Below, in pieces: positions 1,827 through 63,733 of a stretch of DNA of 63,779 nucleotides. The stretch comes from Gammaproteobacteria bacterium (GTDB taxonomy: Bacteria > Pseudomonadota > Gammaproteobacteria > SZUA-229). Where the stretch lies: contig JAOUNI010000010.1 in assembly GCA_029881035.1 (NCBI GenBank), forward strand, positions 1 through 63,779. The letters run 5' to 3'. The first letter of the stretch is position 1. Every line of letters begins with the position of its first letter. The translations under genes were made by a program, and so were the position numbers. The notes under the pieces were generated by a model. It saw only the letters and a list, made by a program, of their open reading frames with translations, made no database searches and had not been told where the DNA came from.

Positions 1827-3443
1827 ATTTCGCCGGTAGCCTGAGGTGATCGGGTAACGCCGATCACGGCCAAAGGCGCGACGGGTAATGCGCACACCGG
1901 GTGCAGCCTGACGGCGTTTGTATTCGTTGCGTTGCACCATAGTGGTGACCTGCTCAACCACTGACTTATCCAGCCCCATGGCAATAATATCTTTCATCGG
2001 CATATCCCGTTCCACGGATAATTCCAGAATCCGGTCCAGCACATCGTAATCGGGCAAAAAGTCCTGATCGCACTGGTCTGCACGCAGCTCAGCAGAAGGT
2101 GGCCGGGTCAAAACACGTTCAGGAATGACATTCCCCAGTGCATTTCGATAACGACATAGCTGGTAGACACGAGTTTTGCTAACATCTTTCAGCGGAGCGA
2201 AACCGCCCGACATATCGCCATAGAGCGTGGTGTAACCCACCGCCATTTCACTTTTATTGCCAGTGGTCAGCAGCATACGGCCGGTTTTGTTGGAAATCGC
2301 CATCAAAATCACACCACGGCAGCGCGCCTGAATATTCTCTTCGGTAGCATCGGCTTCTTTTCCGGCAAACACACCGGCCAGCAGGCTCAAAAATTCCTCA
2401 AAGACCGATTCGATGGGAATAATATCGTACTGTACGCTCAGTATTTCTGCCTCGGCGCGGGCATCTTCAAGGCTCATATCAGCGGTGTACTTCGTGGGCA
2501 TCATCACCGCATGCACATGATCAGCGCCCAGCGCATCAACCGCTATCGCCAGCGTCAGCGCCGAATCTACACCGCCCGATAAGCCGATGACGACACCGAT
2601 AAAGCCATTTTTATAGACATAATCGCGCACGCCGAGAACCAGCGCTTTATAGATTGCCTCGTCTTCTCGTAAGGCAATAACATCACGCTTTTCAACCGGC
2701 TGCACCTGCGATGCAGTCACGTCCACATAGTCGATGAAAGTCTCAAAAGCCGGTGCCCGCGAGACCGGTTTACCCTCGCCATTGACCACCAGCGACTCGC
2801 CATCGAACACCAGTTCGTCCTGACCACCGACCATATTCAAATACAATATCGGCATGTGATTTTCGCGACCGCGCTGCGCCAGCACGTCCAGACGTTCTTC
2901 ATACTTACCGACATGATACGGTGAGGCATTGAGCACCAGCATGACCTCGGCACCGGCGGCTTTGGCATCGGCCAGAGACTGCTTTTCCCAGACATCTTCA
3001 CAAATGGCCAGACCAAACTTTACCCCTTTAAATTCCACCACCACACTCTGCGAGTCCGTCTTGAAATAACGCGCCTCATCAAATACAGAATAGTTGGGTA
3101 ATGCCTGCTTGTGATAACTGGCGATACGCTCACCGTTGCGCAACCAGACAGCGGCGTTATAGAGCTTCTCACCAACGCGATCAGGCATACCCAGCAGAAC
3201 ATCGATATCATTGAGCTGCGACTGAATACGAGCCAGTTGATCGACAACCTGGGCATTAAAACCGGGGCGATACAGCAAATCCTCCGGTGGATAGCCCACC
3301 AGCGCCAGCTCGGGGAACATCACCAGATCTGCCCCTTTCGACTTGGCCGCGCGTGACAGATTGATGATCTTATCAGCATTACCCTTGATATCGCCGACAA
3401 GAAAATTATCCTGTACCATGGCGACTCTAACGGTTTTCTTCAT
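1821..3443 (-). CDS. nadE: glutamine-dependent NAD+ synthetase
   Basis: Converts nicotinate adenine dinucleotide to NAD+, using ammonia released from glutamine. The 540-residue protein has two domains. The N-terminal nitrilase-like amidase (about 1-250) has MFPELALVGYPPEDLL (Glu), the KQALPNYSVFDEARYF lysine region and FGLAICEDVW (Cys). The C-terminal synthetase carries the P-loop GLSGGVDSALTLAIAVDALG and TTGNKSEMAVGYTTLYGD. The ATG at 3443 is preceded by an AGGG ribosome site. It is convergent with, and overlaps, bamD. The two-domain form explains why it is twice the length of E. coli NadE. Confidence 0.96.
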   Translation of the reverse strand: MKKTVRVAMVQDNFLVGDIKGNADKIINLSRAAKSKGADLVMFPELALVGYPPEDLLYRPGFNAQVVDQLARIQSQLNDIDVLLGMPDRVGEKLYNAAVWLRNGERIASYHKQALPNYSVFDEARYFKTDSQSVVVEFKGVKFGLAICEDVWEKQSLADAKAAGAEVMLVLNASPYHVGKYEERLDVLAQRGRENHMPILYLNMVGGQDELVFDGESLVVNGEGKPVSRAPAFETFIDYVDVTASQVQPVEKRDVIALREDEAIYKALVLGVRDYVYKNGFIGVVIGLSGGVDSALTLAIAVDALGADHVHAVMMPTKYTADMSLEDARAEAEILSVQYDIIPIESVFEEFLSLLAGVFAGKEADATEENIQARCRGVILMAISNKTGRMLLTTGNKSEMAVGYTTLYGDMSGGFAPLKDVSKTRVYQLCRYRNALGNVIPERVLTRPPSAELRADQCDQDFLPDYDVLDRILELSVERDMPMKDIIAMGLDKSVVEQVTTMVQRNEYKRRQAAPGVRITRRAFGRDRRYPITSGYRRNL

Positions 3444-49088: not shown

Positions 49089-50513
49089 CTAATGCGCTGC
49101 TGCGGGTGCAGGAATAGTTGCAACAACCGGCTGACGCTTGGCGATAGTTTTAAATACGTTGTAAGCCATGATCAGCATACCGGACAGGAACATTGCTCCA
49201 CCCAGAAACCGAACCACATAAAATGGATGCATAGATTGAACACTTTCCACAAAGCTGTAAGTCAATGTGCCATCAGTATTAACTGCACGCCACATCAAAC
49301 CTTGCATAATGCCTGAAATCCACATTGAGGTTATGTACAGAACAACACCAATTGTCGCAATCCAGAAATGCATTTCAATTAATTTTTTACTGTGCATCTC
49401 AGTACCAAATAAACGAGGAATCAAAAAGTAAATGGCTCCAATGCTAATGAATGCAACCCAACCTAAAGCACCTGAATGCACATGCCCCACTGTCCAGTCT
49501 GTATAGTGTGACAGTGCATTGACGGTCTTAATAGCCATCATCGGACCTTCAAATGTTGACATACCATAGAAAGATATCGACACGATCATAAACTTAAGAA
49601 TAGGATCGGTACGCAATTTATCCCAGGCACCTGATAGAGTCATCATACCGTTGATCATGCCTCCCCATGAAGGTGCCAGCAGTATCAATGAGAACACCAT
49701 GCCCAGAGACTGCGTCCAGTCAGGCAATGCTGTGTAGTGCAAATGATGAGGGCCTGCCCAGATATAGGTAAACGACAGCGCCCAGAAATGAACCACTGAT
49801 AAACGATATGAATAAACTGGACGCTCAGCCTGTTTGGGCAGGAAGTAATACATAATACCAAGAAAGCCCGCTGTCAGGAAAAATCCAACCGCATTGTGGC
49901 CATACCACCACTGAATCATGGCATCTTGCACACCAGCATAAGCTGAATAAGACTTAAACAGTGAAACTGGAACTGCTGCACTATTAACAATATGCAATAT
50001 GGCTACAGTGATAATGAATGCGCCAAAAAACCAGTTTGCCACATAAATGTGTTTAACTTTCCTCGTCGCTACCGTGCCAAAGAAAACAATCGCATAACTC
50101 ACCCAAACAACAGCAATGAGAATATCAATCGGCCATTCCAGCTCAGCATATTCTTTTGATGAAGTAATACCCAATGGCAGTGTGATCGCCGCTAACAGAA
50201 TAATGGTCGTCCATCCCCAAAAAGTAAAAGCTGCTAACTTCGGAGCAAACAGGCGGACATGACAGGTTCGCTGTACTGCGTAATACGAGGTTGCAAACAG
50301 CGCTGAGCCACCAAAAGCAAAAATGACGGCATTGGTATGTAAAGGTCGCAGACGCCCAAAAGTCAGCCATGGCGTATCAAAATTCATCGCGGGCCAGGCC
50401 ATCTGAGAGGCGATCAACACGCCAACAGTCATACCAACAATACCCCAGATAACCGTCATCACGGCAAATTGTCTGACGACTGTGTAGTTATAGGTCATGG
50501 TTTCATCATTCAT
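49089..50513 (-). CDS. ccoN: cbb3 oxidase catalytic subunit CcoN
   Basis: Heme-copper oxygen-reducing subunit with twelve or so membrane helices. The 474 residues include the low-spin heme ligand region [12 protein letters not shown], the copper site [18 protein letters not shown], the [11 protein letters not shown] loop and the heme ligands in [16 protein letters not shown]. The frame opens at a TTG at 50552, but the ATG at 50513 has a strong GGAAGGA ribosome site at 50521-50527 and gives the usual CcoN length. It is the first gene of ccoNOQP. Confidence 0.96.
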
Positions 50514-50580
50514 AGATGCATCCTTCCAGGTTCCTGGGAACTGTTTTTTCAAAAAAAATCGTATATTAGAATTGGCGGAT

Positions 50581-50622
50581 ATTATATGTAATCTAAAATA
50601 ACTAATCTACATCAGTGATGTA
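50581..50622 (-). promoter_or_regulatory. ccoN promoter with a 15-bp palindromic operator
   Basis: On the minus strand TATAAT (50581-50586) is a -10 box giving a start near 50574. A perfect palindrome TACATCAGTGATGTA occupies 50608-50622, centred near -41, where a class II activator would bind. It is not an FNR box (no TTGAT-N4-ATCAA) and the centre is a single base rather than N4. The regulator is unknown. Confidence 0.55.
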
Positions 50623-50837
50623 AAAAGTCGCGATCTCATTAGCAATCATTGTTTTATTTATAATGATTAGCGTTGCCAACCAATACAAAACCTAAAGATG
50701 ATATCCAGAGTAACTAACAAATCCAATCAAAAATATTCGTACGTTTGTTTCTTTTAGCTAAAACATGACTTATATCAAGTACCACTTGAACCTTATAAGA
50801 AATTTAATATCTACCAATTCAATAACATTATCCAGAC

Positions 50838-50878
50838 TTGACACAAGTCACGCTTTGAAAAAAAACCCCCCGTAGAAT
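50838..50878 (+). promoter_or_regulatory. FNR-dependent class II promoter of hemN
   Basis: TTGACACAAGTCAC (50838-50851) is an FNR/ANR-type box with one mismatch in the second half-site. A -10 box TAGAAT follows at 50873-50878. The predicted start near 50885 puts the box centre at about -40.5, the position for class II FNR activation. This also rules out the TTG at 50878 as the hemN start. Confidence 0.85.
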
Positions 50879-50904
50879 TGCTCGACCTTAACAATGAGAT
50901 TTAC

Positions 50905-52296
50905 ATGAACAATCAAGTCATCTTCGATAAAGATTTGATCAGTCGCTACGATTGTTCAGGTCCACGTTACACCTCTTACCCAACAGCCGTGCAATTCAGC
51001 ACAGAATACGGCCCCGAGGATTACTGTGAATGGGTAGATAACAGCAACAACGATCCTATACCTACTGCTTTATCACTTTATCTACACATTCCATTTTGCG
51101 ATACTATTTGTTACTACTGTGGCTGTAGCAAAATTGTAACTAAAGATAAAGACAAGGCACCCGCCTATATTGACTTACTCAAAAAAGAAATCGCCTTGCA
51201 AGGCGCACTGTTTGACAAAGATCGCCCAGTCACTCAGATACACTGGGGCGGTGGCACACCAACTTTCCTTGATAATGAATCCATCCGTGATATTTTTGAC
51301 ACTATCAAGCAACACTTTAATGTACCCGCTGGTGATTCAGGCGAGTTTGGTATTGAAGTTGATCCACGAACAGTTGATGAAGAGCGTATTGCCCAGTTGC
51401 GCAATATCGGCTTTAATCGTATTAGCTTTGGTGTGCAGGATTTCGACCCTGATGTACAGGAGGCTGTCAATCGTGTTCATACCAAAGAACAAATTATGGA
51501 GGCTATTAATGCCGCCCGTAAAAACAACTTTCATTCCATCAACATAGATTTGATGTATGGCCTGCCCAGGCAGACACTAAAGAGTTTTGAGAAAACAATT
51601 CAAACAACCATTGATGCTAGCCCTGATCGCATCGCTGTCTATAACTATGCGCACCTGCCAGAAATGTTCAAACCCCAGCGCCGTATTAATGAAGATGAAC
51701 TACCCAGCGCTGAAGAAAAATTAAAAATACTCCAACTTACCATTGATAAATTACAGCAGGCAGGCTACGTCTATATCGGCATGGATCACTTTGCCAAACA
51801 GAGTGACGACCTGACAAAAGCCCAGCAAGAAGGAACGCTGCACAGAAATTTCCAGGGTTATTCTACCCATGCTGACTGCGATACTGTTGCCATGGGCATC
51901 ACCGCCATCAGTAGTATCGGTGACAACTACTCACAAAACGTACGAACAATTGAAGATTACAAAATGCACATTGAACAGGGGAAAATTCCAGTTTTCAGGG
52001 GCATAGAACTGGAATCAGACGATATTCTACGTCGAGAAATTATCAATCAGCTGATGTGCAATAATAAACTCGATATAGAACGGCTTGAACAAAGATGGGG
52101 AATCGAATTTAAAAAATACTTTGCTTCTGCCCTGCCCGCTTTGCAAACCATGGCCACCGATGGCCTGATCATCATGGACGATCAACATATTGAGATCACC
52201 GCCTCTGGCCGTTTACTGGCACGTACCATCTGTATGGAATTCGACCGGTATTTAAAGAAAGATTCACTTAAACAACACTTTTCAAAAGTGATTTAA
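50905..52296 (+). CDS. hemN: oxygen-independent coproporphyrinogen III dehydrogenase HemN
   Basis: Radical SAM enzyme for oxygen-free heme synthesis. The ATG at 50905 gives 463 residues, beginning near the family stretch YDCSGPRYTSYPTA; an upstream in-frame TTG lies before the predicted transcription start. The cluster motif CDTICYYCGC carries the CxxxCxxC ligands plus the extra Cys typical of HemN. WGGGTPTFL and NIDLMYGLPRQT follow. It shares TTAA at its stop with the convergent fnr. It supplies heme for the oxidase under low oxygen. Confidence 0.96.
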   Translation: MNNQVIFDKDLISRYDCSGPRYTSYPTAVQFSTEYGPEDYCEWVDNSNNDPIPTALSLYLHIPFCDTICYYCGCSKIVTKDKDKAPAYIDLLKKEIALQGALFDKDRPVTQIHWGGGTPTFLDNESIRDIFDTIKQHFNVPAGDSGEFGIEVDPRTVDEERIAQLRNIGFNRISFGVQDFDPDVQEAVNRVHTKEQIMEAINAARKNNFHSINIDLMYGLPRQTLKSFEKTIQTTIDASPDRIAVYNYAHLPEMFKPQRRINEDELPSAEEKLKILQLTIDKLQQAGYVYIGMDHFAKQSDDLTKAQQEGTLHRNFQGYSTHADCDTVAMGITAISSIGDNYSQNVRTIEDYKMHIEQGKIPVFRGIELESDDILRREIINQLMCNNKLDIERLEQRWGIEFKKYFASALPALQTMATDGLIIMDDQHIEITASGRLLARTICMEFDRYLKKDSLKQHFSKVI

Positions 52297-53063
52297 CCTT
52301 TAAGTCCCTTTTTTTCTTTACCATCGCCACTCTCCCCAACGATGACCTTTAGCCGATGAAGATTCAAGATGCTGATACGACGTCGATCAACCTTAATAAT
52401 GCCCGCATCCTGATACTGCGCGAACAAACGGCTGACCGTCTCGACGGCCAGGCCAAGATAATTTGCAATATCCTGTCGCGGCATACTCAAAACAAACTCC
52501 GTCGCCTTCCAGTGCCTTTCTTCCATGCGCCGGGAAATACTCAAAAGAAAAGTGGCAATTTTTTCCTCAGCGCTCATCTTGCCTAACATCAGCAGCATTT
52601 TGTGTTCTTCAGTCACTTCCTTGCCCATAATACGCCGCATTTGATGCTGTAAACCAGGAAGGGTGTTACATAAACTTTCCAGTTTGTTCATCGGGATAGC
52701 ACAAACACTAGTGGTTTCCAGAGAGATAGCCGTGCAGGTATGATTGCCATCCATAAAACCATCCACGCCAACCAGTTCACCCGGCAAATGAAAACCTACG
52801 ATCTGCTCATCACCATTCGGACTCTCAACCAGTGTTTTCACACTACCTGAACGCACCGCATAAATCGCACGCGAAGCGTCACCCTCACGGTACAAATGAT
52901 CGTTTTTCTGCAAAGGTTTACGTTGCTCAACAACCGCGTCCAACTGGCTCATATCTTCCTGATTCATACCATGAGGAAAACAGAGCTCATTCAAATTACA
53001 CTGACCACAAGAAACCTTGAGTCTTTCAAATGTCACTAATTGGGGCTTATTTGTATCGGTCAT
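52293..53063 (-). CDS. fnr: oxygen-sensing regulator of the FNR/ANR family
   Basis: CRP-family activator with an oxygen-labile 4Fe-4S cluster. The 256 residues carry N-terminal cysteines CGQCNLNELC and a fourth Cys in TTSVCAIP, the four-ligand set of FNR. The C-terminal recognition helix LAVETVSRLF keeps the Glu, Ser and Arg that read TTGAT. Likely targets here are hemN, through the box at 50838, and possibly others. It may be called anr in pseudomonads. Confidence 0.94.
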   Translation of the reverse strand: MTDTNKPQLVTFERLKVSCGQCNLNELCFPHGMNQEDMSQLDAVVEQRKPLQKNDHLYREGDASRAIYAVRSGSVKTLVESPNGDEQIVGFHLPGELVGVDGFMDGNHTCTAISLETTSVCAIPMNKLESLCNTLPGLQHQMRRIMGKEVTEEHKMLLMLGKMSAEEKIATFLLSISRRMEERHWKATEFVLSMPRQDIANYLGLAVETVSRLFAQYQDAGIIKVDRRRISILNLHRLKVIVGESGDGKEKKGLKG

Positions 53064-53231
53064 GTTTTTTTACTTAATCTCAAGACTTTTGTGAATCCAT
53101 ATTATGCCGTGTTTGCACACTTCATATAAACTGCGAATCTAAAACCCAAACCGCAAAGATATAATCCCTCTGGCAATTAAAGCACCCTTTGCACCTTTTT
53201 AGTACCTAAAGCGAAAAAAATAATTGATCTA

Positions 53232-55706
53232 ATGATAAAACCTCAACCCATAAAACCATGTTTCCACTGTGGGCTACCTATACCAAACCAGCTTGATATT
53301 CACGTACACATCAACGGTAAAAATGAAGCCATGTGCTGTTATGGCTGTCAGGCGGTGGCACAATCGATTGTTGATAGCGGTATGGAAGACTTTTATAAAT
53401 TCAGGACCCAACCTTCACTCAAAGCCGATAAAATCGTCCCTGAATTCCTGCAGCAGCTCAAAGCCTACGACAACCCGCAGGTGCAAAAGCACTTTGTTAC
53501 CGATGGCAGCGAGCAGATTCGCGAGGTTTCACTCATTCTTGAAGGCATTGTCTGCGCCGCCTGCGTCTGGCTCAACGAGCAGCACTTGAACGCCCTGCCC
53601 GGGGTGATCAGCGCCAATATCAACTATTCCAACAACCGTGCCCGTGTCCGCTGGGATAATAATCGCATCACCCTCAGTGAAATCCTCGAATCCATCACAC
53701 GCATCGGCTACCTTGCCCACCCTTATAACCCTGACCGCCAGCAGGTGCTGATAGAAAAAGAAAAGAAGCAGCAGCTGCGTCGCATTGGTATCGCCGGTGT
53801 GCTGGGCATGCAAATCATGATTCTGGCGGTGGCCATGTACACCGGCGAGTGGTGGGGCATAGAAGATACATTCAACCAGATGTTCCGCTGGGTGAGTCTG
53901 GCGGTGACTGCACCTCTGCTGCTGTTTGCCTCCAGTCCTTTCTTTACTGCGGCCCTGCGTGACCTCAAAAACAAACGCGTTGGCATGGATGTGCCGGTAG
54001 CACTGGGTATCGGCATTGCCTTTGGCGCCAGCGTCATCCACACCATTCAGGGCTCAGGCGAAGTCTATTTTGACTCAGTCGCCATGTTCACCTTTTTCCT
54101 GCTGTCAGCGCGTTACTTCGAATCCGGCGCACGAAAACGCACCGCCGAAGCCACCGAAGCCCTGCTCAATCTGCAACCGGCGATCGCGACAAAACTCATC
54201 GTCGATAGCGATGGTGTATTCGATCACCAGAAACAGCTCAGCCTCTCGGTGGCTGAGCTTGCCATCGGCGATTACGTGCTGGTCAGACCGGGAGAGCACA
54301 TCCCGGCCGACGGCAGCATCGTTGAAGGCACCTCAGGCATCAACGAATCGCTGATCACCGGCGAAAGCCTGCCGGTCACCAAAACCATCGGTGACGATGT
54401 GATTGGCGGCAGCACCAACACCGAAAGTCCACTGGTGATCAAAATCGACAAAATTGGTGACGATACCGTGCTCGCTTCGATTCAGCGTCTACTCGATGAA
54501 GCCCAAAACAGGAAACCGGCGATTGCCAAAATGGCCGACCGGCTGGCTTCAAAATTTGTCACTGTCATTTTACTGCTGGCCAGCCTCGTCGCTGTGTACT
54601 GGTACCAGACCGACCCCGAACACTGGGTCGCCATCACCATCGCCACCCTGGTCGTCACCTGCCCCTGCGCCCTGTCACTGGCCACACCGGCAGCACTCAC
54701 CGCCGCCAGCGGCCAGTTCGCCAAACTGGGGCTATTGCCCGCCAGTGCCAATGCCTTGGAAACACTCAGCAAGGCCACCGATTTCGTTTTCGATAAAACC
54801 GGCACACTCACGCAGGGCAACATCCGCCTGGTCAAGGCGGTATCACTGGATGACAGCCCCGTCGAAAATCATCTGCAAATCGCCGCCGCACTCGAAGCCG
54901 GCTCCGAACACCCGGTCGCCAGAAGCCTGATTCAGGCCGCCGGCGAAAACACCGATGCTGGTGCACCGATCAAAGTTAGCCAGCTCGATAACAAAGCCGG
55001 CCAGGGCGTCAACGGCATGATCGAAAATACACAATGGTACCTCGGCAACATCAACTACATTAATCAGATCTGTGAGCAACACTTTTCAGCTTCACAGCTC
55101 GCAGAACAGCAAATTAGCGAGATGACACTGGTCGCGCTGGCCACCGATAAAAAAATATTTGCCGTGTTCGCGTTCGATGATGAGATCAGGGAAGAAGCGC
55201 CTGCACTCATCCAGAAACTCAAACAACAAAACAAGACCATCACGCTGATGACCGGCGACAACAAGGCCAATGCCCTGCGCATCGCCAGAAAAGTCGGCAT
55301 CGACCACGTTTATGCCGAGATGAAACCCGCCGACAAACTGGCCCAGGTTCAGAGCATGCAACAGCGTGGCGCCATCGTCGCCATGACTGGTGACGGCATC
55401 AATGATGCCCCGGTGCTGGCTGGCGCCGATGTATCCATCGCCATGGGCAGTGGCACACAACTCGCTGCCGCCCACGCTGACTTGATCCTGCTATCTAACC
55501 ACGTCGAGCATTTGTACACCGGTTATCAAATCTCTACCCGCACACTAAAAATTATTCGGCAGAACCTGAGCTGGGCTTTCGGTTACAATCTGCTGGCCGT
55601 ACCCGCCGCCGCCACAGGTCATGTTGACCCATGGATGGCTGCCATCGGCATGTCCGCCAGTTCATTGTTCGTCGTACTCAATGCCCTGCGCCTAACCCGA
55701 TCATAA
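53232..55706 (+). CDS. ccoI: copper-transporting P1B-type ATPase CcoI (FixI)
   Basis: Copper pump needed to assemble the binuclear site of cbb3 oxidase. The 824 residues have an N-terminal Cys cluster (CFHCG and CCYGC), an HMA domain with CAAC (about 106), eight helices with CPC in VVTCPCALS (about 476), the phosphorylation site DKTGTLT (about 521) and GDGINDAPVL (about 719). The gene is visibly richer in G and C after about 53,450 than upstream. It is followed 20 bp later by ccoS. Confidence 0.95.
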   Translation: MIKPQPIKPCFHCGLPIPNQLDIHVHINGKNEAMCCYGCQAVAQSIVDSGMEDFYKFRTQPSLKADKIVPEFLQQLKAYDNPQVQKHFVTDGSEQIREVSLILEGIVCAACVWLNEQHLNALPGVISANINYSNNRARVRWDNNRITLSEILESITRIGYLAHPYNPDRQQVLIEKEKKQQLRRIGIAGVLGMQIMILAVAMYTGEWWGIEDTFNQMFRWVSLAVTAPLLLFASSPFFTAALRDLKNKRVGMDVPVALGIGIAFGASVIHTIQGSGEVYFDSVAMFTFFLLSARYFESGARKRTAEATEALLNLQPAIATKLIVDSDGVFDHQKQLSLSVAELAIGDYVLVRPGEHIPADGSIVEGTSGINESLITGESLPVTKTIGDDVIGGSTNTESPLVIKIDKIGDDTVLASIQRLLDEAQNRKPAIAKMADRLASKFVTVILLLASLVAVYWYQTDPEHWVAITIATLVVTCPCALSLATPAALTAASGQFAKLGLLPASANALETLSKATDFVFDKTGTLTQGNIRLVKAVSLDDSPVENHLQIAAALEAGSEHPVARSLIQAAGENTDAGAPIKVSQLDNKAGQGVNGMIENTQWYLGNINYINQICEQHFSASQLAEQQISEMTLVALATDKKIFAVFAFDDEIREEAPALIQKLKQQNKTITLMTGDNKANALRIARKVGIDHVYAEMKPADKLAQVQSMQQRGAIVAMTGDGINDAPVLAGADVSIAMGSGTQLAAAHADLILLSNHVEHLYTGYQISTRTLKIIRQNLSWAFGYNLLAVPAAATGHVDPWMAAIGMSASSLFVVLNALRLTRS

Positions 55707-55726
55707 TTAAAGACCAATAAAATTCT

Positions 55727-55915
55727 ATGGAATCGCTTTATCTTTTAGTTCCCCTCGCTCTACTAATAGCCGTCGGCATTGTCTGGGTTTTTTTGTGGGC
55801 AGTAAAATCCGATCAGTTTGAAGACCTCGAAGGCCCCGCGCATCGGATTATTATGGATGACGATGACAAGGTAAAAGAAAAAACCGACCACGAATCGACA
55901 GATAAAAAACAGTGA
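55727..55915 (+). CDS. ccoS: cbb3 oxidase assembly protein CcoS
   Basis: A 62-residue single-helix protein: LLVPLALLIAVGIVWVFLWAV followed by the CcoS signature KSDQFEDLEGPAHRIIMDDD. CcoS is needed for cofactor insertion in cbb3 oxidases. It overlaps the next gene by 4 bp (GTGA). Confidence 0.94.
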   Translation: MESLYLLVPLALLIAVGIVWVFLWAVKSDQFEDLEGPAHRIIMDDDDKVKEKTDHESTDKKQ

Positions 55916-56466
55916 ATGCCTTTACCACCAATGCCTCGCTGGTGCTTTATCCGACCGAACCCGACTGGGTGCCTGACGATCCGGAAGCATTGATCATTTT
56001 TTTGCAGGCAGCGGGACTTGCAGGCGACCCCTTAATCAAACATGAAAATAGTTTTCTAGCGGGTGAAAAATTTCTCGATCACATTAGCTTCATGGGCTGC
56101 TCACCCAACATTAAATTCAGTGACGAAAACAATGATGGCAAGTTTACTTTTATACACTTAACGATCACGCCGACCATCACCGCCCTAACCGGCAAACACA
56201 GTTTTGCACCGCATTGTCCACACTGTAAAAAACCAGAAAAAAACTGGCGAGAACTTTTGAAAGACAATCAACTGACCTGCAGCCACTGCCAACAAACCGC
56301 AAACGCATGGCAATTCAACTGGCGCAAGTCAGCCGGCTTTGCTCGTTGCTTTATTGAGATCACAGACATTTATCCAAAAGAAGCAATCCCCCAGCCTTTA
56401 CTGCTGGAATCTCTAAAAAAAAGATTTCAGATTTCCTGGGGGTATTTTTTTATCATACCTAAATAA
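55912..56466 (+). CDS. zinc-ribbon protein of unknown function coupled to ccoS
   Basis: A 184-residue protein starting at a GTG that overlaps the ccoS stop as GTGA, so translation is likely coupled. No signal peptide or membrane helix. Two CxxC knuckles (CPHC near 101-104 and CSHC near 123-126) form a probable zinc ribbon, CPHCKKPEKNW and LTCSHCQQ. Before it lie DWVPDDPEALIIFLQAAGLAG and HISFMGCSPNI. I do not recognise the family. The location suggests a link to oxidase or copper handling, but that is inference. Confidence 0.75.
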   Translation: MNAFTTNASLVLYPTEPDWVPDDPEALIIFLQAAGLAGDPLIKHENSFLAGEKFLDHISFMGCSPNIKFSDENNDGKFTFIHLTITPTITALTGKHSFAPHCPHCKKPEKNWRELLKDNQLTCSHCQQTANAWQFNWRKSAGFARCFIEITDIYPKEAIPQPLLLESLKKRFQISWGYFFIIPK

Positions 56467-58555: not shown

Positions 58556-61500
58556 CTATTGTAAGCAAACGCGGAAGGAGATCTGGAAGCTCGGACTTGG
58601 TGGAACCGTATTACCAATAAATGTGCCTTTCGGGTTAACCCGAATATGCGTAATTGGCGGTGCGGTGGTATCACAGCCCGTGACTGCATCAAAGGTAGGT
58701 GTAGCACCGTAGCTGGTACCACCATCATTTGAGAAGGACAGGTCGTCACCCAGAGCAGGATCATCGAAACTATCGGCCAAGCTGGTAAAGCTGTAACTCA
58801 GGGTGCTGGAAGTTGTACCCTGTGTGAACAGTACAGGACCTGAACCCGCGCCACCGATATCATCAACGTACAGTAAAGTATTAGCTGGAACCGGATCAAA
58901 CACCATCGTTGAATCAAGATCCGCTGAACCTGCACCACTGTTGGTCGCGATAATGTTGTACTGCATTACCGCACCCGGTATTGCCTTGGGGTTGGATGCA
59001 ATATTGACCGGATCACTGATCGTCTGCACTGATTTCAGTAACATGATGCTCGGTGCGCTCTGCACGGTAATGCTCGCCCAGGCGGTGGTGCCAGTGAGCG
59101 CCGCCAGGGAAGTCGCCGCCGTTGCCACAGGTGTGCCAGCCGTGTTGGTCACCGCGCCAGCTGTCGATGAAGTGATATTAACCACCGCTTCACAGGAGAT
59201 TCCCGCCGCCAGCGAAAGCACTTTGAAACGAATCGCACCATCGCCAGCAACAGATGGGCTGCCATCAGTTCTGGTGACAGCGCCACAGGCGGCAGGCGTG
59301 TAACTGAATATGGCATCCTGTAATGTCATACCGGTTGGGAAGGTATCGTCCACCAGCACGTCAGTAATGGCATCGGGATTACTGGCTGGATTGGTCAGTG
59401 TTAACGACAGCGTGGTGCTCGTACCACTATTCAGCGTTGCCGCAGCAAAAGATTTAATCAATGTCGGCGGTAAATAAGCCGTGGTGGCTGCTGTCACATC
59501 CGCCGCAGGACCAGCAGAGGCATTGCCTGAAGTGACAGCACCAGCAGCCAGCGTGTTGGTATAACCGCCTGCTGCCGTCGCGGTCAGATCGACTTCAATC
59601 TTACAGGTTCCAACTACCAGAGGAGGTCCCGTAATCGTAGCCGGAATCGTGCCACCGGAAATGCTCAGCGTACCAGCACCCGCCGCTGCCGTCACGGTGC
59701 CACCACATTCGTTATAAATATTAGGCGCTGCTGCGTTGACCAGATTCGGAGGGTAAGTATCGGTAAAAACCATACTGGTGATCGCCGTCGTGTTCGGATT
59801 AGTCAGTATGATGGTAAGACGGTTGGCATTACCCACCTGGAAGCCGGTGTTAGCAAACGCCTTGGTGACGGTAGGCGGACTCAGGTGTGCAATCAGTTCG
59901 GCGGTATTACTGACCGGGCCAACTTCGGAATTCGTAGAAGAAACGGCACCGCTGGTGGTGTTGTAATAACTACCTGCAGCGGTCACTGAAACAGGAATAT
60001 CAATCGTACAGGTCGGATCAAAAGGAGTAACCAGTCCACTACTAATCGCACCACCGGTCAATTTGATGCTGGTTGAAGCACCAGCCACCAGTGCCGCACC
60101 GGCATTATCCGTTAATACACCACCACAACCATTCAATATGGTTGCTGGATCTGTCACTACCATCTGCGATGGACTAGTCGGGAAAACATCGCTGAACTCA
60201 ACAGCAGTAATATCAACACCGGAATTATTTTCGACAATAATGCGCATCACAGTACTCGCGATACCGCCAGACAATTGTATCGGGCTGGTCAAAAATGATT
60301 TTTTGATTGTCGGCTTGGTGGTAATAATTAAAGTATCTGCACCCGAAACACCGATACCCTCATTGGAAGCCACGTTGCCAGTCGTGTTGATGTAAATTGC
60401 TGGCGTGGTATCGGTGGCATAGACATCAATTTCAATCTTACAACTGGCACCCGGTGCCAGGGTGCCACCTGACAGAATAATACCGACATCACCGCCAGCT
60501 GCATTAATTGCCGTCGCAGTAGTACCATCCCAAGCTTCAAGCGAGCCTCCAGTGCAGGTCGTGGTTCCATTTGGTGTTGGCGAGGTAGTAATAGATGCCG
60601 TTAACGATCCACCTGCTAGCCTGGTTGCTGTGGTTGGAAAGAGATCGGTAATTCTCAACCCGGTAAGTGATGCCGTCAAACTCGGATTAGTAATAGTAAT
60701 AATCAACCGTGAAATATCACTCGGGCCCAGTGTCGTTGGCGTCACCTGAGTCGGGGTAAAGGTCTTGCCGACCGCGGGCGCAATCCAGGTGGCGATATTG
60801 CTGGCACTACCCGTGCCGGTAAAAGAACCGGTCAGGCCTGAAGTCTGGTTTTGATACACACCCAGCGCATTGACGGCGAGATTGATACTGAAGGTACAGC
60901 TTCCTCCAACAGCAACCTGCCCATCGGCGAGCTTGATTCCTAAATCACCACCTGTTGCAGAAAGCGTTCCCGCTGTCGTTCCATTCCACGACTCAATACT
61001 GCTGCCAGCACCACAGGGTTCTGCCGGTGATACACTCGGCGGGTTATCGGTACTCATACCTGTCGGGAACAAATCAGTAAACGACAAACCCGTAATATCC
61101 ACCACATCATTATTAGTAATAGTGATGGTCATCGTGCTAATACCAGTGGCCGGATTGAAGCTAAAGCTCTTGTCGATAGTGGGCGTGGCGTTGACGAACA
61201 GCGTATCGGTTGCTACTACCGTGCTGTTGCCGGCATTGCCGGTGGTGACATCACCAATGCCAATGGTATTGATATAACCGGTCAGGTTGACGACATCGGA
61301 AGTCACATCAACGCTCACCGTACAGCCACTGACTGGAATTGTGCCCGCAGAAAGGCTCAGGCTACCGCCGCCGGCTACTGCTGTTACAGTACCACCACAG
61401 CTGTTCGTGATATTAGGTATTGCTGCGTTAACCAGGTCAGTCGGATAGGTATCAGTAAATGCCGCCCCGGTAATCGTCGCATTATTAGAATTAGATAGCG

Positions 61501-63733
61501 TAATGGTTAATGTCGAGGTCTGCCCCTTGCCAATGATTGCAGGCAAAAATGCCTTGCTCACTGTTGGTGGTGCCAACACCGATAAGGTAGCGGTATTACT
61601 GACTGGGCCTGCCGGGCTCGACTCATTCGAATCGACGCCGGAGGTGGTATTGGCATAGTCACCCGCCGCGGCTGCAGTAACATCAATAGAAATCATACAG
61701 CTGCCTGCGGGATCGACAATACCGCCACCGCTCAGCTGAATACCAACATCACCACCAGCGGCATTGAGCGCACTGGCGGTGGTTCCGTCCCACGCATTTA
61801 CGGTACCGCCACAGCTCGAACTCAGCGAAGCGGGATTCGCCGTTACCAGCCCGGCCGGGAACAGGTCATCAAAAGTCATGCCGGTAATCGCAATGCCGGT
61901 ATTGTTGGTAATACTGAAACTCAGCGTTGCGATATCGCCAACGGGAATGCTGGAAACAGAGAAGGCTTTGCTGATAGTTGGTTTCGGCGTAAATGAAATA
62001 ATCGCGCTGGCTGTGAGGCCGGTACCACCATTGCTGGACGACACCACTCCCGTGGTATTGGTATAAACATCATTAACTGATGACGTTACTTTCACAGAAA
62101 CGGTACAGCTCTGTTCGGGTAACAGCGTGCCACCGGTAATTGAAATGGTGGTGCCACTGATATTCAAGGCAGCACCCGTACAGGTGGTAGCGGCATCAGG
62201 TGGAGTAGCAAATACTAAACCGGCAGGACTGGCCGGCAAGGTATCGCTGATAGCAACACCATTTAATGTATGACCAACATTTGGATTTCCGATCGTCAGT
62301 TTCAGCGTCGAGCTAATACCCACTGCCAGTGCCGTTGGTGAAAATTCCTTAAGGATAGTTGGCGCGAAAAGCACCTCTGTGCTCGCAGTGGCCGGTACGT
62401 TGTCGCTGGTGGTTAGCGTGGTATCGATGATCGCATTACCAATCAGCGCAATCGCAGAATTAATATAAGTACCCGGTGTTGCCGGCAGCGTTGCCTGGAA
62501 GATCAGCGAGCGTGTCGCACCTGCTGGAATATTAAATAACGATGACCAGTCGTGGGTGGAGCCAGAAATGTAAGGATCAGGCAGGCTGACATTATTAAAT
62601 GTACTCGAACCCGGAACGTAAGTGGCACCCGCTGGCAGCACATCGATAAAACTATCCAGGCTTAAAGGCGAACCACCCTGGTTGGTCGCGCTAAGCGTAT
62701 AGGTCACCACCCCACCCTGCGCAGGCAAAGTGGCATGACTGACGGATTTCGCCAACAGCACCTCGTTCTTTGCCGGCAGGATCGGCAACAAACCACCTGC
62801 GGTCGCATAGGCGCCACTGCCAAGGTTGGTATGTTTAATCGGCTGGCCACTGGTTATATAGGAAACTGGAGATAGCGTGGTAGTCGAAGCCGTGGTTGCG
62901 ACCGGCCTGAAATAGTAGATAGCATTGTAATGGGTTGTCGAAGATGACGGCACACTATCAATGTATAACTGATTATCAAACGTAATATTGTTACCGACAG
63001 ATAGCACAATGCTGGTGGCGACCAGTTCGTAGGCATCAGCACGCCAGTCGGTGAAGGTGGCAGGGTTAAATGCCATCGGGCCTGCACCCGTGCCAGTAGT
63101 GTCACAGCTGGATGGCACGGAACAACCGATGGTGCCAGTGTCACCATCTACGGTCAGCGTCGTAGTCGCACCCAGCACACTGGGGTTGATGTCCGCCCAG
63201 ATTGCATTAACCGTATTGGGGTTTGCCTCAATGACATCATCATCAATAGTGACAGAGTCCGTCGTCGTACCTATAGGAACAGTGGCGCCGCCACCAGCGG
63301 CTACCGGCTTACCTTCATAGGTGCTGAGAGAAAAACTCTGCGCTGCTGAGGCCGCCTTGGTGGTGTAAGTCGAGCACACGTAATAGAACACCGCCCTGGT
63401 TTCATTCGCTGCCATTGGGCCGAAATGGAAAATGCCATCATCGCCGCCGCCCATAAACAGGTATGTGGTAGTGGATACATCTATTTCCACCCAGGCATCA
63501 TTAATGGCTGCGTCGGTAGTTACATCAAACGAAAGATAATTACACTTTGGTGAAGTGGTTGCGGTATCTGCATCTGAGTTGCTATAAAAAATCGGTGATG
63601 AGGTACGAGTGACTGTGACTGCAGCCTGCGCTTCAGCAGCAAACAGCGTGAACAGCAACAGGCCGGCAGGCGGCAACAGTTGCAATAAGCGGCGAAGGAG
63701 TGACAGGTAGCCCCTGACGGGTGTGTTTATCAT
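58556..63733 (-). CDS. giant secreted DUF11/DUF7933-type repeat protein
   Basis: A 1725-residue exported protein. A signal peptide (LLQLLPPAGLLLFTLFAAEAQA) precedes an N-terminal domain (about 35-320). A DUF11-like unit follows at about 324-455, then eight repeats of 125-145 residues (about 456-1556), each starting like PTI.K.F and holding a TNP/ITN strand, a D.FP turn and one pair of Cys (for example SSCGGTV and GSCMISI). A final DUF11-like unit (SAPSIMLLKSV) ends at FRVCLQ. No LPxTG, OmpA, autotransporter or other anchor domain is visible. Ser/Thr/Ala-rich, no catalytic motif. A surface or matrix adhesin role is inferred. The end of purD lies 61 bp away, convergent. Confidence 0.85.
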   Translation of the reverse strand: MINTPVRGYLSLLRRLLQLLPPAGLLLFTLFAAEAQAAVTVTRTSSPIFYSNSDADTATTSPKCNYLSFDVTTDAAINDAWVEIDVSTTTYLFMGGGDDGIFHFGPMAANETRAVFYYVCSTYTTKAASAAQSFSLSTYEGKPVAAGGGATVPIGTTTDSVTIDDDVIEANPNTVNAIWADINPSVLGATTTLTVDGDTGTIGCSVPSSCDTTGTGAGPMAFNPATFTDWRADAYELVATSIVLSVGNNITFDNQLYIDSVPSSSTTHYNAIYYFRPVATTASTTTLSPVSYITSGQPIKHTNLGSGAYATAGGLLPILPAKNEVLLAKSVSHATLPAQGGVVTYTLSATNQGGSPLSLDSFIDVLPAGATYVPGSSTFNNVSLPDPYISGSTHDWSSLFNIPAGATRSLIFQATLPATPGTYINSAIALIGNAIIDTTLTTSDNVPATASTEVLFAPTILKEFSPTALAVGISSTLKLTIGNPNVGHTLNGVAISDTLPASPAGLVFATPPDAATTCTGAALNISGTTISITGGTLLPEQSCTVSVKVTSSVNDVYTNTTGVVSSSNGGTGLTASAIISFTPKPTISKAFSVSSIPVGDIATLSFSITNNTGIAITGMTFDDLFPAGLVTANPASLSSSCGGTVNAWDGTTASALNAAGGDVGIQLSGGGIVDPAGSCMISIDVTAAAAGDYANTTSGVDSNESSPAGPVSNTATLSVLAPPTVSKAFLPAIIGKGQTSTLTITLSNSNNATITGAAFTDTYPTDLVNAAIPNITNSCGGTVTAVAGGGSLSLSAGTIPVSGCTVSVDVTSDVVNLTGYINTIGIGDVTTGNAGNSTVVATDTLFVNATPTIDKSFSFNPATGISTMTITITNNDVVDITGLSFTDLFPTGMSTDNPPSVSPAEPCGAGSSIESWNGTTAGTLSATGGDLGIKLADGQVAVGGSCTFSINLAVNALGVYQNQTSGLTGSFTGTGSASNIATWIAPAVGKTFTPTQVTPTTLGPSDISRLIITITNPSLTASLTGLRITDLFPTTATRLAGGSLTASITTSPTPNGTTTCTGGSLEAWDGTTATAINAAGGDVGIILSGGTLAPGASCKIEIDVYATDTTPAIYINTTGNVASNEGIGVSGADTLIITTKPTIKKSFLTSPIQLSGGIASTVMRIIVENNSGVDITAVEFSDVFPTSPSQMVVTDPATILNGCGGVLTDNAGAALVAGASTSIKLTGGAISSGLVTPFDPTCTIDIPVSVTAAGSYYNTTSGAVSSTNSEVGPVSNTAELIAHLSPPTVTKAFANTGFQVGNANRLTIILTNPNTTAITSMVFTDTYPPNLVNAAAPNIYNECGGTVTAAAGAGTLSISGGTIPATITGPPLVVGTCKIEVDLTATAAGGYTNTLAAGAVTSGNASAGPAADVTAATTAYLPPTLIKSFAAATLNSGTSTTLSLTLTNPASNPDAITDVLVDDTFPTGMTLQDAIFSYTPAACGAVTRTDGSPSVAGDGAIRFKVLSLAAGISCEAVVNITSSTAGAVTNTAGTPVATAATSLAALTGTTAWASITVQSAPSIMLLKSVQTISDPVNIASNPKAIPGAVMQYNIIATNSGAGSADLDSTMVFDPVPANTLLYVDDIGGAGSGPVLFTQGTTSSTLSYSFTSLADSFDDPALGDDLSFSNDGGTSYGATPTFDAVTGCDTTAPPITHIRVNPKGTFIGNTVPPSPSFQISFRVCLQ

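Follow-up and report, generated by a model that had tools for sequence, protein, structure and literature searches.

The 1725-aa protein encoded near one end of the window, the whole 63779-bp stretch of DNA that was analysed, combines a stalk of Ig-like modules with a conserved C-terminal module, and this module tracks a separate OmpA-containing protein, here called D, over nine families of Gammaproteobacteria. We think it rather likely that the protein is a fibrillar surface adhesin whose C-terminal end docks onto D. A broader idea is put forward more tentatively, namely that D, the three small secreted proteins encoded beside it (A, B and C) and a module-bearing partner (E) form an undescribed proteobacterial surface-display system. 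In such a system D would be an outer-membrane platform tethered to the cell wall through its OmpA domain and would receive long folded rods via a portable C-terminal module with an exposed beta-strand at its end, with the bodies of E swapped per target.

The gene and its orthologues

The window spans the whole of contig C2, one of the 99 contigs that make up a 2.69-Mb genome. The ORF list places the gene on the minus strand at 58556-63733 with an ATG start; its frame is open up to the contig end at 63778, and its upstream neighbour lies beyond that end. The N-terminus of the protein looks complete, since three full-length orthologues begin at the equivalent ATG. Orthologues were found in four other genomes of the same genus when 58 genomes were searched, three of them full-length (G001, G002 and G006; 74-76% identity, 1660-1688 aa) and one truncated at the edge of its contig (G004; 73% identity), and this search found none in G003 and G005 of the same genus. 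Contig C86 of G006 and JAGLQT010000176.1 (L003), which have identical match coordinates, were counted as one sequence. In three orthologous loci the gene is flanked by what by eye resemble a DUF389-type membrane protein gene and purD, and no exporter adjoins it in these flanks. The protein is divided as follows.

58556-63733, minus strand: giant secreted repeat protein, 1725 aa (ORF and orthologues in the same genus)
63620-63733, minus strand: signal-peptide-like segment, residues 1-38 (by eye)
62771-63619, minus strand: N-terminal domain, residues 39-321; Cys 64, 120, 204 and 210; proposed tip
62366-62770, minus strand: DUF11 module R0, residues 322-456; K329/D364/N425 (Pfam DUF11 and triad)
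61979-62365, minus strand: DUF7933 repeat R1, residues 457-585; K462/D497/N559, C518/C543
61571-61978, minus strand: DUF7933 repeat R2, residues 586-721; K589/D623/N695, C641/C679
61187-61570, minus strand: DUF7933 repeat R3, residues 722-849; K727/D761/N822, C779/C804
60782-61186, minus strand: DUF7933 repeat R4, residues 850-984; K855/D887/N962, C907/C946
60317-60781, minus strand: DUF7933 repeat R5, residues 985-1139; K990/D1030/N1116, C1060/C1098
59879-60316, minus strand: DUF7933 repeat R6, residues 1140-1285; K1145/D1182/N1258, C1203/C1242
59471-59878, minus strand: DUF7933 repeat R7, residues 1286-1421; K1291/D1325/N1393, C1343/C1377
59057-59470, minus strand: DUF7933 repeat R8, residues 1422-1559; K1427/D1463/N1530, C1483/C1514; model matches 9ifr
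58559-59056, minus strand: C-terminal module R9, residues 1560-1725; K1567/D1613/N1700, C1687/C1723; candidate domain for docking or sorting

The signal peptide claimed in the initial annotation agrees with residues 1-38, which look signal-peptide-like by eye. At E<=1, Pfam recognises only DUF7933 and DUF11 in the protein and NCBIfam only the DUF11-type repeat. The N-terminal domain (residues 39-321) is conserved in the three orthologues, has no Pfam match at E<=1 and no adhesive domain recognised in it, and gave a mean pLDDT of 33 in AlphaFold2 with a two-sequence input. Sequence searches of the PDB returned only weak matches for the whole protein, the repeats and the N-terminus, and phage records returned no match to the protein. 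Elsewhere in the window, positions 49089-56466 hold what by eye resemble a cbb3 oxidase, hemN, an FNR-type regulator and a copper-type P-ATPase, which are ordinary low-oxygen respiration genes.

A stalk probably locked twice in every repeat

Ig-like modules make up the stalk, one of the DUF11 and eight of the DUF7933 type. DUF7933 (PF25564) matches the protein in eight stretches with 419.8 bits against a gathering score of 26.5 (whole-protein E 1.1e-127), and in the genome search each of the eight places exceeded the gathering score. The eight tandem repeats with exactly two cysteines each at matching places, as first described, were recovered: the pairs are 518/543, 641/679, 779/804, 907/946, 1060/1098, 1203/1242, 1343/1377 and 1483/1514, with the first cysteine 52-70 residues past a conserved lysine and the second 16-18 ahead of a conserved asparagine. 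When 16 cysteines were placed at random over the repeat region, 70 of 200,000 trials put two into each repeat. Six further cysteines (64, 120, 204, 210, 1687 and 1723) lie outside the repeats, bringing the total to 22, and all 22 align to cysteines in two of the three full-length orthologues. In the third, 21 of 22 are aligned, with 1060 falling in a gap, yet that protein too has 22 cysteines.

The suggestion that each module of a long stalk holds a single disulfide is plausible, given that the cysteine pairs are conserved and that DUF7933 domains are reported to be rich in disulfides (PMC12617251). This is half of the story, however, as the Lys-Asp-Asn triad had been missed. When the ten modules R0-R9 are aligned, five columns are invariant (Lys, Asn, Asp, Pro and Asn), the triad is present in 10/10 Ig-like modules, and none of the 30 triad residues is lost in any of the three orthologues. 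Within the eight repeats the spacing is 32-40 residues from Lys to Asp and 95-126 from Lys to Asn. PMC12617251 gives a DUF7933 triad of Lys 973, Asp 1008 and Asn 1068 (spacings 35 and 95), with which the order and spacing in the window repeats agree; it predicts intramolecular isopeptide bonds for DUF7933 and reports a DUF11 (CLIPPER) domain solved with an isopeptide bond and a CTTC disulfide. Each repeat is therefore probably locked twice, by an isopeptide bond and by a disulfide, since every module also has the triad of isopeptide-bond domains.

R8, the one repeat modelled with fair confidence, is predicted to adopt an Ig-like CLIPPER-type (CnaA-like) fold. Its ten-residue confidence means are 80-93 over the first 110 residues, except for one of 58, and the best structural match of the model is 9ifr, the crystal structure of that CLIPPER isopeptide domain (Z 13.4, rmsd 2.2, 117 aligned), which Foldseek ranked third (E 3.6e-5). 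An alignment of three repeats was dropped, as its rows slid onto identical repeats and gave no depth, and single-repeat rows were used instead. DUF7933 occurs in 11 of 54 genomes of the window's family, four of which have eight repeats and are all of the window's genus, while in the other seven the only match is a single weak one lying within the gene for D. Within the family, the eight-repeat protein was found only in that genus.

The C-terminal module

The initial annotation saw no anchor in the protein. Known anchors are indeed absent in Pfam and NCBIfam at E<=1, as is a C-terminal translocator barrel in Pfam at the same threshold, in line with the reported lack of an autotransporter signal, and Pfam at E<=1 finds no Type I (RTX) adhesin repeats near the C-terminus. 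The statement is misleading all the same, in that the C-terminal 165 or so residues form a conserved module that tracks D. Alignment A1 sets residues 1560-1725 against the C-terminal ends of proteins whose bodies differ. Counting partial matches to gene C, the module is matched at E<=1e-5 in 23 of the 54 family genomes; a near-complete module, defined as most of the profile at E<1e-20 and leaving out the partial matches of gene C and of G072, is found in 18. The best 28 distinct module rows (rows sharing their last 60 residues counted once, and two holding only the last part of the module) all stop 0-3 residues ahead of the stop codon. The two module cysteines (1687 and 1723) are kept in the genus orthologues and absent from the other members of A1. 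In a joint structure model of R8 and R9, nearly all of R9 had a pLDDT under 50-51.

The module is also carried by a protein on a Sphingomonas plasmid. On L003 a 98-aa ORF upstream of the orthologue (2713-3009, minus strand) matches the module end (E 2e-6) and extends past it, and it is probably a remnant of a second module-bearing gene. Two other leads were discarded. The module profile hit designed beta-trefoils in the PDB at E 0.0005, which we put down to chance similarity over a short motif, given that none of the stretches passes by itself, and none of 71 pattern matches in viral contigs proved to be a relative.

Protein D and its locus

In the window's own genome, D is the last of four consecutive same-strand genes, A-B-C-D (407, 182, 457 and 1994 aa), at 47.9-57.5 kb of contig C12 (L049), a different contig from that of the window gene. 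B and D exceed the Pfam DUF11 cut-off and A the NCBIfam cut-off for the DUF11-type repeat, below which C falls; gene C itself is weakly module-like. D matches OmpA, a peptidoglycan-binding domain, at E 6e-14. A beta-barrel in D is weakly supported: OMP_b-brl is matched in three of eight D homologues (best E 0.0023) and not in own D, the C-terminal part of which has no Pfam match, and a hydropathy-periodicity test gave no information. A search of the PDB with the C-terminal half of D gave a glycoside hydrolase as its best hit (E 0.069), which was rejected. Distant relatives of D on plasmids are labelled TonB-dependent receptor, OmpA family protein or DUF11 domain-containing protein.

Several further observations were made at such loci. 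D is spread over several frames in G129, G240 and a Novosphingobium plasmid (L146:8342-13595, L150:9030-12642 and L158:7587-12759), for which decay, sequencing errors or phase variation are alternative explanations. On Acinetobacter haemolyticus plasmid p4 (L157:8577-20942), small DUF11 or NEW3 genes are followed by a D-like gene, then by a free-standing OmpA family gene and by a 978-aa DUF11 gene that showed no module match. The arrangement looks as though D's OmpA portion had split off to become an independent gene. Beside A-B-C-D on contig C12 (L049:460-2106, minus strand) are encoded two proteins, 182 and 332 aa long, that look secreted and seem to resemble the DUF4402 type.

Co-occurrence and linkage of the module and D

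Among 276 Gammaproteobacteria genomes, each at least 90% complete, the module (E<=1e-15) was detected in 12 and a strong D (best E<1e-200) in 21, with all 12 module genomes included (Fisher p 9e-16). In this count 22 genomes with weaker D-like matches were scored as lacking D, giving 43/276 in total at E<=1e-15. The module genomes belong to nine families and the strong-D genomes to fifteen; the window's own genome (G000) and G014, both of the window's family, are counted among the 12. The 54 genomes of the family hold module and D together in 16 cases, the module alone in two, D alone in five and neither in 31 (Fisher p 1.1e-7). This family-level association follows genera (p 0.039 within g11 and 0.14 within g1), so the class-wide sample is the better test. 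A near-complete module with no D found occurs in G060 and G062, genomes that are 79% and 84% complete.

The module gene lies close to D, on the same contig and strand, in seven of the 12 module genomes (G095, G129, G130, G151, G166, G240 and G268) and on a different contig in the other five (G000, G014, G203, G235 and G287). Among the 16 genomes of the window's family that hold module and D, the two share a contig in G018 alone, where they lie close together on one strand. The neighbourhoods of the module were read in 10 of the 12 genomes (in G235 on the module's contig alone), together with the module region of G014 and the D locus of the window's genome. In transcription order the genes run E-A-B-C-D in G095 and G130, E-A-C-D in G018, where a B-like frame separates A from C, and A-B-C-D-E in G129 and G151; in G151, A is split in two and there is a second E gene. 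The stretches read in G166 and G268 contain B-C-D-E and C-D-E respectively, and in G240 D runs in pieces from the contig end and is followed by E. The order A-B-C-D-E recurs on plasmid pTHN of the alphaproteobacterium Novosphingobium sp. THN1, with C and D in pieces.

The bodies of the linked E proteins differ. Among them, the E of G240, with four DUF7933, one DUF11 and the module, comes nearest to the window protein. Others match fn3 (G166 and G268), H-type lectin (both of G151) or P-domain (G130); the E of G095 matches DUF11 only, and no match was obtained for the short E of G129. A weaker D homologue in G057, a genome from another family, is directly followed by a DUF7933 protein of 2479 aa that lacks the module.

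Export and attachment

We propose the following sequence of events. The protein would be exported by Sec first and its modules would then fold in the periplasm, where an internal Lys-Asn isopeptide bond would form in each module with Asp as the catalyst; the disulfide added in each repeat would yield a stalk resisting pulling and proteases. The C-terminal module would be the sorting or docking part and engage D, as co-occurrence and linkage suggest, with the small secreted A, B and C as accessories of D, and own A-B-C-D would be supplied from another contig. The N-terminal domain would point outward as the tip. The outer membrane may be crossed with the help of D or via the type II secretion system (T2SS).

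Type II systems export folded, disulfide-bonded proteins, and a T2SS also figures in the better of two alternatives, which we regard as unlikely: the rod would be a type II substrate, cross-linked in the periplasm, that exits via GspD and is surface-held or shed without D, the module being merely its last Ig-like domain. The window protein shares with type II substrates a Sec-type start and disulfide-type folding ahead of export, and its genome encodes GspC, GspD, GspE and GspF above curated cut-offs. On a Roseovarius faecimaris plasmid (L035:2905-9060), moreover, a repeat-like stretch found by tblastn lies directly after gspD, GspE/PulE and type II F genes, though in an ORF annotated as an autotransporter. 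However, a T2SS is available but not diagnostic, since GspD is near-universal in the family (E<=1e-80 in 48/54 genomes and in 22/22 high-quality ones). GspD does not track the module and so says nothing on module carriers, whereas D does, and export by the T2SS leaves both the conservation of the module and its unlike bodies unexplained. A SlipAM search for a T11SS gave no match in G000, and control genomes were equally silent. Most 'DUF11' matches in the accessible part of PMC12282271 are DUF1194, with one real DUF11 in its domain list.

The other alternative, that module and D are co-inherited in one surface or periplasmic set with no contact, the rod being held otherwise or remaining periplasmic, seems to us a little less likely still. 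It draws on the unlinked position of the window gene relative to D in its own genome, on the weak likeness of gene C to the module, and on a strand-like tail of alternating hydrophobic residues with which A, B and C end (26/28 rows, one of the 28 being a broken piece) much as E proteins do (13/13), so that the module could be something common to the whole set instead of a docking signal. The tail pattern, present in 15 of 154 other ORFs and one of 18 D pieces of the same stretches, was chosen after the tails had been seen and is hence descriptive; it may mark only that an Ig-like domain ends there. Against co-inheritance without contact, linkage and co-occurrence hold over nine families, and the module is joined to bodies of different kinds, lectin-type ones among them, which is what an attachment domain would be expected to show. 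Docking to D is the reading that we prefer. Points that speak against it are the five module genomes with D on another contig, the genus-bound association within the family, the genomes that hold only one of the two, the weakly supported barrel, the N-terminus with no recognised adhesive domain and the G057 protein that lacks the module.

Relation to known systems and outlook

The repeats belong to a known family for which isopeptide bonds are predicted. The window protein resembles described DUF7933 proteins in its matches, in its triad of published-like spacing and in its cysteine pairs, disulfides being reported as prevalent in such domains (PMC12617251), but has eight such domains in tandem with a cysteine pair in every one, and here too the bond is a prediction. 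Another close comparison is the CLIPPER protein B9T28_05395 of Acinetobacter silvestris, a Gram-negative fibrillar adhesin that likewise has an Ig-like stalk with the triad; the R8 model matches the CLIPPER crystal structure (9ifr). As described in PMC12617251, B9T28_05395 has an OmpA-like anchor and a CshA-like tip on its own chain, whereas the window chain has neither; a stalk of repeated domains, as in fibrillar adhesins, is present, but Pfam and NCBIfam at E<=1 show no known anchor on the polypeptide. It is the placing of OmpA on a separate protein, D, that sets the window system apart from this adhesin. A literature search that covered few subscription papers brought up no account of either the module or the A-B-C-D locus.

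The chemistry of such stalks is known, and the question addressed here is how Gram-negative isopeptide rods are held without an on-chain anchor. A module that tracks one outer-membrane-type protein over nine families turns this into a testable proposal with a single module, a single partner and a variety of bodies, lectin-like ones among them. Should the module prove to be a docking signal, surface adhesins that are at present unannotated could be recognised by their final 165 residues.
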